DNA of 64,000 nt, taken from NCBI GenBank assembly GCA_024274705.1, contig JAJSAL010000135.1:1-64000 (forward strand). The letters are read 5' to 3'. Source of the DNA: Spirochaetota bacterium (GTDB lineage: Bacteria; Spirochaetota; Spirochaetia; SPDA01; JAJSAL01). The position numbers and the translations under genes were made by a program. The notes below the pieces were generated by a model that saw nothing but the letters and a program-made list of their open reading frames with translations, ran no database searches and was not told the DNA's origin. This document shows, piece after piece, positions 934-3,586 of this stretch (position 1 is the stretch's first letter; each line of letters starts with the position of its first letter).

Positions 934-2196
934 TTACACGCCAAGGTGGGACTTCAGCAATTTACAGAACTGCTGGGCTTGAATCGAATCGGGATCAATA
1001 AGGAGCGCCTTTTCACAATCATCGAGCGCCCGAGAATAATCTCCGGAGTGATAATACGTCTGAGCACGTTGAAAGAGCGCGTCGAACTTAAAAGGATCCA
1101 ACCTCACGGCTCGGCTGAAATCCTCCCGAGCAGCTTCGTATTCCTCCAGTACCTGCAACACAACGCCTCGGTGGTACAATGCCTTTGCGTTATCCGGGTT
1201 CAATCTGATAGACTCATTGAAGTCTGCCAATGCTGCCTTGTAGTCATCTTTGGCAAAATACGCCATCCCCCGATGGACCCTAACGATAGCTTTTACTTGA
1301 TCCTGGGTTGCTATTTTAAGTATTGACGTGTAGAGGGAGATTGCAGATGTGTACTTCCCTGCGTTATGTGAAGAAAGAGCCTTGACCAAAAGCTCATCCA
1401 TAGTGTCACCACCGGCTGGCACAAGCGTCGCAATTACTTCGTCCTCTTCTTGTTTTTCAGCAGGACGCACGGCTGAGGCCTGCTCGTCCCCCATTCCACC
1501 ACTGCAACTCTCCTGGATCTTCCGGGAAAGACTCTCCCTTCTTTTTTTGAGCTCGAGATGTAGCCTGCGCTGGTAATCTCGGATTTCCTGAAATATAAGA
1601 TCAGACAAAGTGAGATTTGCATTCAAAGCGGCGAGCTTGCGCTTCAAGGGCTCATCAAATGGGGCAAACTCAGCCTTGTAAACAAGTTCGTGCTCAATTT
1701 CCGCCCATGCGTCCTGAAGAATTGTCCGCAATTGTATCTCACAGACGACAGAGGCTTCTCGTCCGCAGGACTCCAGGATGTGGTGTGGAACAGCAACGAG
1801 GAAATGGGTGGAACTGTAACCAAACTGATTGAAAGAGTGGTTCATTCCTTTCCGTTCGACCTCGATTACTTCGAAGCTCTCCTGGAGCACGGTTTCGGCT
1901 TTAATGAGGTCCTCAAGAAAATGACACACTATACGGAGACCGAGAACATCGCTGATACGGGGTGCCGGGTCTCCATTCTTTCCCTGATTCGCATTTCTTA
2001 AGCGCTTGAAATAGTAACTCTCGAAAGACTTCACACGCGCTTTTGTGGCAGCGCGTAGCTCCGCTCGCTGCAACCGCTTTGCAACCTCTGCCCTGAGTGC
2101 GGTCAGCACTTCCTCAGCTTTTAGCCGCAGTGCTTCATATTCTATCTGAATCTCCTCCAACTCAGGATATGGAATTTCTGATCTCTGTGTAATCAT
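934..2196 (-). CDS. RelA/SpoT-type (p)ppGpp synthetase with C-terminal TPR repeats
   Basis: A 420-residue protein. Residues 50-210 form a RelA/SpoT nucleotidyltransferase domain of the small alarmone synthetase type. Visible motifs are RVKSFES (54-60, ATP binding), ISDVLGLRIV with D83 (metal), GYSSTH (126-131, GTP-side contacts) and EIQLRT (153-158). No HD hydrolase domain precedes it, so it should make rather than degrade alarmone. A polar, charged linker follows, then about four TPR units (roughly 270-415). The ATG at 2196 overlaps the stop of the upstream cyclase gene by 4 nt, implying translational coupling. The TPRs presumably sense or bind a partner protein. Activity is inferred from motifs only. 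Confidence 0.85.
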   Translation of the reverse strand: MITQRSEIPYPELEEIQIEYEALRLKAEEVLTALRAEVAKRLQRAELRAATKARVKSFESYYFKRLRNANQGKNGDPAPRISDVLGLRIVCHFLEDLIKAETVLQESFEVIEVERKGMNHSFNQFGYSSTHFLVAVPHHILESCGREASVVCEIQLRTILQDAWAEIEHELVYKAEFAPFDEPLKRKLAALNANLTLSDLIFQEIRDYQRRLHLELKKRRESLSRKIQESCSGGMGDEQASAVRPAEKQEEDEVIATLVPAGGDTMDELLVKALSSHNAGKYTSAISLYTSILKIATQDQVKAIVRVHRGMAYFAKDDYKAALADFNESIRLNPDNAKALYHRGVVLQVLEEYEAAREDFSRAVRLDPFKFDALFQRAQTYYHSGDYSRALDDCEKALLIDPDSIQAQQFCKLLKSHLGV

Positions 2197-3542
2197 TTCT
2201 TTGATTTTTCCAGAGCAAAAATTCGCTTACCATTTCTGAATACACTCACCACACCTGTGGATTGCGATATTACGACCGAAAAGGCTGCTGTGGTTGCCGT
2301 TATTGCTGCAGCGGCGGTATGTCGGGCTCCAAGACCTGCCGGTAACTCTTCTGTAGCCTTCTCAGGCTTCAGGAAAACCCCTGCAGACATAACCACTCCA
2401 TCTCCCCGGATCACGAACGCCCCATCGATAGTGGCGAACTCCTTGATCGTCTCCTCCAGGAATGGATCCATGATTGACTTCTCGTCATCCCGATATCCGC
2501 GGAAAGGATTGATGACCATTTGCTGGCAAGACTTCACAACCTGCTCGTAGTCCCCAATTACAAAAATTGCACCAACCGGCCTGCCTTCCCGGCCCTCCCG
2601 GGCCAGATCCATGGCAATCTGTAGCGCTCTCTCCAATATCGGAGGTTTAAGGTCGCCAAGAACAGCGGAGGTAGAGCTGGATAGGAATGGTGAGAATTTG
2701 GTACCGACGTCAATCACCATCAGCGTGTCGAGAAACCCAGAGTCCGGGGCTCCAGAAACACTTACGACCCGGTCGCCGCTGCGGAACAGGCCTTCTGAGA
2801 CCCCAAAAAGGAGCGACATCTCTACCTGTTTAGTCCGATTTAGACCGGCAAACGGTGCCACAAGCACTCGAGCGAATCCCTCAGCGTGCTTCCGGTCACC
2901 AGCCTTACCGGGGATTACGACGATTATCTTCTCTCTATCTCTGATTCCATTGATGTAGTCTGTTACCCCCAGGGCGTTAGCGTGTACGAGAACTGCTTTC
3001 GCCCGGGCTTCCTGTGCCACTGCGAGAGCGTGGTTCACAATCATCAAAGTGAGTCTCTGCTTGTTTATCTCAGGGGGCTTGTGCGGGGCTTCAATGATGC
3101 CAAGAAATACCTGGTGGAACTCGTCTTTAGAACGCGCATCCAACAGCTGCTTCTGGAACGCCATATCCTTCAGCAGACGAGCAATCTCCGCTAACAGGAG
3201 GATGTGCTGATCAGGCTTCTCCTCGTCCCCCAGGATCATAAACAGCAGATGAACTGGTTTCGCATCGCCGGAATCATACACAATCCCTTCTCTGCTCCTA
3301 CCAACGGCAAGGATGAAACGTCCCAGGCTAGGCAAACGGGCATGAGGTATAGCAACCCCCGACGCGATCCATGAACTGATAATCTTCTCTCGCTTCCAAA
3401 TTGCCTCGAGAATCTTATGAGGACCCAACGAGGGCTCGTCTTTACACAACGAGTTTACCATCTCCTCCAGTGCTTCTTCTTTCGTACGGCTCCGAAGAAA
3501 AACGATTTTTAAAGGCGAGAGGAAATCAGACAGGTGCACCAT
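2193..3542 (-). CDS. PTS EIIA type-2 / pyruvate-kinase-C-like / diadenylate cyclase (DAC) fusion
   Basis: A 449-residue, three-part protein. Residues 1-150 are a PtsN-like EIIA domain with the phosphorylatable His in VAIPHARL (H67). Residues about 155-300 resemble the pyruvate-kinase C-terminal-like domain found in archaeal DacZ cyclases. Residues about 305-449 are a DisA_N/DAC domain with DGA (373-375) and GARHTAAAAIT (405-415). Most bacterial cyclases have RHR where this has RHT, so catalysis is likely but not certain. The product would be c-di-AMP from two ATP. The open frame extends to a TTG at 3713. I chose the ATG at 3542 because it starts exactly at the EIIA fold and a promoter lies between the two candidates. 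It overlaps the alarmone synthetase gene by 4 nt. Confidence 0.8.
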   Translation of the reverse strand: MVHLSDFLSPLKIVFLRSRTKEEALEEMVNSLCKDEPSLGPHKILEAIWKREKIISSWIASGVAIPHARLPSLGRFILAVGRSREGIVYDSGDAKPVHLLFMILGDEEKPDQHILLLAEIARLLKDMAFQKQLLDARSKDEFHQVFLGIIEAPHKPPEINKQRLTLMIVNHALAVAQEARAKAVLVHANALGVTDYINGIRDREKIIVVIPGKAGDRKHAEGFARVLVAPFAGLNRTKQVEMSLLFGVSEGLFRSGDRVVSVSGAPDSGFLDTLMVIDVGTKFSPFLSSSTSAVLGDLKPPILERALQIAMDLAREGREGRPVGAIFVIGDYEQVVKSCQQMVINPFRGYRDDEKSIMDPFLEETIKEFATIDGAFVIRGDGVVMSAGVFLKPEKATEELPAGLGARHTAAAAITATTAAFSVVISQSTGVVSVFRNGKRIFALEKSKK

Positions 3543-3556
3543 GCTCTTCTTTCTGC

Positions 3557-3586
3557 AATGTACCACGGATACAACCCGATAGTCAA
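3557..3586 (-). promoter_or_regulatory. Candidate promoter for the cyclase/alarmone operon
   Basis: Read on the minus strand, TTGACT (3586-3581) and TACATT (3562-3557) are separated by 18 nt. They sit 14 nt before the ATG at 3542. This supports the shorter start of the cyclase gene and a very short 5' leader. Confidence 0.4.

Follow-up and report, generated by a model that had tools for sequence, protein, structure and literature searches.

The DacZ / DacY-CdaZ branch of diadenylate cyclases includes H. volcanii DacZ and M. jannaschii CdaZ; bacterial members of the branch have been reported, and one spirochaete and several deltaproteobacteria are listed under a DacC class (PMC6741144). Among small alarmone synthetases of the DsRel/SAS-TPR type, T. 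denticola Tde-SAS (TDE1711) synthesises ppGpp, with its TPR domain acting as a brake on the catalytic domain; the partner binding that would release this brake is the authors' speculation (PMC10434055). In Caulobacter, free EIIANtr binds SpoT and acts on it when phosphorylated (PMC4848567). In Firmicutes, c-di-AMP controls Rel via DarB/CbpB, a CBS-domain c-di-AMP receptor that binds Rel (PMC7900238, PMC8549634); according to part of the first of these reports, DarB does not interact with other small alarmone synthetases.

The window (the whole 64,000-nucleotide stretch of Spirochaetota DNA analysed here) carries overlapping genes for a predicted cyclase and a predicted alarmone synthetase. As in DacZ / DacY-CdaZ proteins (PMC6741144), the DAC domain of the cyclase is preceded by a PK_C-like (DacZ_P) domain; unlike them, it has an extra N-terminal EIIA domain with a conserved phospho-histidine, and no MscS-like gene was present among the EIIA-DAC neighbours scanned. 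The synthetase resembles Tde-SAS (PMC10434055) in its N-terminal synthetase with all motifs, its C-terminal TPR region, its length (~410-420 aa) and its spirochaete host, whereas its gene overlaps a DAC gene. A PtsN-type EIIA is associated with an alarmone enzyme, as in Caulobacter PTSNtr, but is here fused to DAC. The pairing of c-di-AMP and (p)ppGpp likewise recalls DarB/CbpB-Rel crosstalk, but the window unit encodes no such receptor. No work on EIIA together with a diadenylate cyclase was found in the literature searched, nor was such a two-gene unit, but the RelA-TPR family itself is already known as DsRel.

Architecture of the two overlapping genes

Both genes lie on the minus strand. 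The EIIA-DAC open reading frame (3542-2193) begins with ATG and encodes 449 aa; an in-frame TTG could lengthen it to 3713, and a start near 3542 is supported because a homologue at another locus, L003, aligns from codon 2 (GTG). The RelA-TPR frame (2196-934, 420 aa) shares with it a 4-nt ATGA stop/start overlap at 2193-2196. The overlap was thus confirmed as originally predicted, as were the domain assignments for both proteins, with Pfam matches and intact key catalytic motifs, and from the overlap we infer one operon. The single promoter proposed for it fared less well: the promoter-like TTGACT-N18-TACATT is present upstream of EIIA-DAC (3586-3557, minus strand), but it matches the consensus at only 9/12 positions, and 16 such matches occur in the region against 7.2 expected. 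Its sole further support is that DNA homology with L003 begins there.

The cyclase protein starts with an EIIA domain (PTS_EIIA_2, PF00359; residues 15-146, positions 3105-3500; Pfam E 2e-29) of the PtsN/fructose type, whose nearest PDB matches are PtsN proteins. Its phospho-acceptor, His67 in the motif 'IPH67' (3342-3344), is conserved in 26/26 EIIA-bearing homologues. Directly N-terminal of DAC lies a probable sensor domain, DacZ_P (PF21755; residues 164-281, positions 2700-3053; E 9e-11), which scores above its own cut-off; the PK_C match is sub-threshold (1.6e-4). The DAC catalytic domain (residues 314-439, positions 2226-2603; E 2e-23) carries the DGA and RHxxA motifs of DacZ/CdaZ proteins intact, from D373 (2418-2426) and at R407H408 (2319-2324). 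The top NCBIfam match of the protein is DacZ (E 1e-35); it scores 123 bits where the haloarchaeal equivalog model requires 430, so the protein is DacZ-like rather than an equivalog. Across an alignment of 26 full-length homologues the EIIA histidine is invariant and the DGA and RH motifs are conserved; four relatives have no EIIA domain at all. An AlphaFold2 model built from a 2-sequence alignment was unusable (pLDDT 34).

RelA-TPR contains a RelA_SpoT synthetase domain (residues 54-175, positions 1672-2037; Pfam E 5e-19) with intact motifs (R54xK56, D83..R88, 'GYSSTH' and 'EIQLRT..QDAW..IEHEL.YK'), has no hydrolase domain, and ends in a TPR region (residues about 264-404, positions 985-1407; Pfam/NCBIfam searches). 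Full-length homologues of the same architecture, to which the window copy is ~34-50% identical, occur throughout Spirochaetia, and the match to Tde-SAS is by architecture. The gene is flanked by the DAC gene and, on the same strand downstream, by a frame for a 199-aa probable membrane protein without a Pfam match (259-858). A defence or toxSAS role was rejected: the only hint was a weak PADLOC match (PDC-S33, 4e-9), and no small antitoxin gene adjoins RelA-TPR at the locus. The contig opens with a tRNA-Met (CAT) gene on the plus strand (9-82).

Elsewhere in the same genome, sequence reading and Pfam matches identified a housekeeping CdaA, with a YbbR/CdaR-like frame after it, as well as a long Rel that has both a hydrolase and a synthetase region; each member of the pair would therefore be an accessory enzyme. 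Genes for EI (contig C166) and two HPr proteins (C37 and C95) are also present, so that a phosphorelay to the EIIA domain is possible.

Distribution and neighbourhood in Spirochaetota

EIIA-DAC relatives were detected in 16/393 phylum-sampled genomes (E<=1e-30) and in 60/395 class-sampled genomes (E<=1e-60), and RelA-TPR in 143/393 of the phylum sample. At the threshold used, EIIA-DAC was not detected in 131 of the 143 RelA-TPR genomes of the phylum sample; RelA-TPR was detected in 16 of 30 EIIA-DAC genomes tested and was not detectable in the other 14. EI is nearly universal (371/393 phylum-sampled genomes), so its co-occurrence with EIIA-DAC is uninformative. Many of the genomes are incomplete MAGs, which makes the absences soft. 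The sample is at species level and incomplete, with only two other genomes from the window's order, and unsampled relatives could hold intact pairs.

In the conserved-neighbourhood search called for by the original prediction, RelA-TPR adjoins EIIA-DAC in one of 44 genomes inspected, that of the window (flanks up to about 1.5 kb), and among 30 loci with ~6 kb flanks where available, no EIIA-DAC neighbour was conserved beyond close relatives. Instead, the neighbours vary by clade; co-directional ones include fumarase, SbcC, alpha-amylase, a glycosyltransferase-EIIA fusion and a chromate transporter, and 4-nt overlaps also occur with SbcD-SbcC and with alpha-amylase, in two genomes each. In genomes with both genes on one contig but apart, they lie at 0.56 and 1.41 Mb (847 kb between; G371), at 0.44 and 1.25 Mb (807 kb between; G130) and, at the smallest distance, 32 kb from each other (G375). 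With adjacency in 1/44 genomes and different neighbours almost everywhere, a conserved neighbourhood of the two genes was rejected; conserved coupling of c-di-AMP and (p)ppGpp is not supported either, given the genomes in which one family was detected and the other was not. The pairing is thus lineage-restricted rather than a conserved two-messenger unit.

Two of these neighbourhoods were noted in their own right. At L026:3833-9446 and at L027, genes for SbcD-like and SbcC-like proteins (SbcD and SbcC being DNA-repair genes) and EIIA-DAC stand in a row with 4-nt overlaps, which is another lineage-specific operon of the cyclase. At L003, a family-2 glycosyltransferase (GpgS-like by eye) with a C-terminal EIIA lies directly upstream of EIIA-DAC (1922-3466). 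An ancestral osmolyte link through this GpgS-EIIA gene was rejected: the arrangement is absent from all other EIIA-DAC loci scanned, and the GpgS-like relative in the window's own genome (C196; 48% over residues 3-321) lies elsewhere, in a frame of 339 aa that leaves no room for a fused EIIA.

Origin of the pair

The L003 locus (the same contig stretch as L124/G484) preserves a trace of the pair. Its EIIA-DAC is 83% identical to that of the window in protein and 84% in DNA, and the match is confined to window positions 2149-3586 (L003:3493-4930). It passes the EIIA-DAC stop into the first 48 nt of RelA-TPR, of which 37 are identical; there the RelA-TPR ATG has become ATA, the frame is broken and the remainder of the gene is missing. 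The encoded N-terminus resembles the family (IPxxxxLExxY), and the stretch is therefore best read as a remnant and not as a precursor of the start. By sequence comparison, the pair existed in the common ancestor of the window and L003 copies, and L003 has since lost the synthetase, whereas dN 0.09 and dS 0.48 (dN/dS ~0.19) point to continued purifying selection on EIIA-DAC. The intact pair is thus found in this genome only, an outcome that the original prediction had counted against itself, but a second lineage carries a broken remnant.

The L003 genome belongs to another order than the window's. Members of its own family carry EIIA-DAC copies of 47-48% identity that group in the tree with the window's order-mate G393, whereas the L003 copy clusters with that of the window, with full support and in discordance with its order. 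By contrast, the genes for PyrB and the large molybdenum-hydroxylase subunit adjoining the window locus are only ~72-75% identical in protein between the two genomes, and the L003 genome has another RelA-TPR elsewhere (44%). The discordance of the L003 copy is likely due to transfer or to mis-binning of its contig.

Taken together, these results make it quite probable that the locus comprises two accessory messenger enzymes, from families with their own distributions, that now stand in one short operon in the window's lineage. A join produced by MAG assembly or contamination is very improbable. The window genome is MAG-like, with 198 contigs and an estimated contamination of 7.72%, but the junction sits within a 71.7-kb contig, and the independent MAG contig of L003 has the same stop/start junction and 44 nt beyond it. 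A more serious possibility, which we nevertheless regard as less than even, is that the operon was assembled by chance without shared regulation, EIIA-DAC landing beside many genes and here beside RelA-TPR. The clade-to-clade change of flanking genes fits this reading, as does the apparently transferred or mis-binned L003 copy, with its 83% identity across orders against 47-48% in its own family. A wholly unlinked pair, however, requires an overlap without effect, and a 4-nt gene overlap usually gives some translational coupling.

The opposite reading, a dedicated switch in which EIIA phosphorylation sets c-di-AMP and also the (p)ppGpp of the overlapping synthetase, whether by co-expression, by complex formation or by way of c-di-AMP itself, appears unlikely. 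It gains from the overlap of two genes with intact active sites, from a pairing older than the split of the window locus and L003, and from the Caulobacter and Firmicutes precedents, in which EIIANtr~P acts on SpoT and c-di-AMP controls Rel. Against it are adjacency in a single genome of 44, the loss of the partner in L003 despite purifying selection on the cyclase there, and the 14 of 30 EIIA-DAC genomes without RelA-TPR. As for the original idea that a phosphorelay sets two messengers together, the input is possible, given the conserved EIIA histidine and the presence of EI and HPr, but no conserved coupling was found, and support for a dedicated two-messenger unit is weak. That one PTS signal sets c-di-AMP via EIIA-DAC and (p)ppGpp via the DsRel synthetase, with EIIA or c-di-AMP directly engaging the TPR brake and not by co-expression only, likewise seems to us unlikely.

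Under the preferred reading of two accessory enzymes in a short operon, the cyclase would be a DacZ/CdaZ-like enzyme that additionally bears a PtsN/fructose-type EIIA domain at its N-terminus. EI and HPr would phosphorylate His67, and the phosphorylation state would most likely set c-di-AMP output; the PK_C-like DacZ_P domain would provide a second input, possibly by binding a metabolite, and the enzyme would work beside CdaA. RelA-TPR would be a DsRel-type small alarmone synthetase working beside the long bifunctional Rel and controlled by its own TPR domain, which probably holds catalysis back until partner binding. In the window organism only, the overlap would cause the two genes to be expressed together, probably through translational coupling. 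Whereas the sequences, domains, motifs, overlap, distribution and remnant are direct observations, we infer the enzyme activities, phospho-gating, co-transcription and the absence of an obligate functional link. Phospho-gating is suggested by conservation of the histidine and the presence of EI and HPr; an alternative would be that EIIA works through protein-protein contact.

The EIIA-bearing cyclase

The EIIA-DAC protein is the more interesting object of the pair and the part worth testing, as a candidate for a PTS-gated c-di-AMP cyclase alongside the housekeeping CdaA. If it is gated in this way, PTS phosphorylation, and with it carbon/nitrogen state, would be linked directly to c-di-AMP, a link of which the literature searched gave no description and which would extend to many Spirochaetia (60/395 sampled genomes). 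The pairing with a (p)ppGpp synthetase is of less importance, being restricted to a lineage and lost from the one close copy. The EIIA-DacZ_P-DAC architecture may correspond to the DacC class.

Two further loci depart from this architecture. In a 610-aa EIIA-DAC variant (L030:8186-10018), ~160 additional residues separate EIIA from DAC, and no DacZ_P is recognised. At L035:6891-8843, a class III nucleotide cyclase gene (Guanylate_cyc domain) precedes the gene of an EIIA-less DAC protein at a distance of 3 nt, possibly another two-messenger pair.
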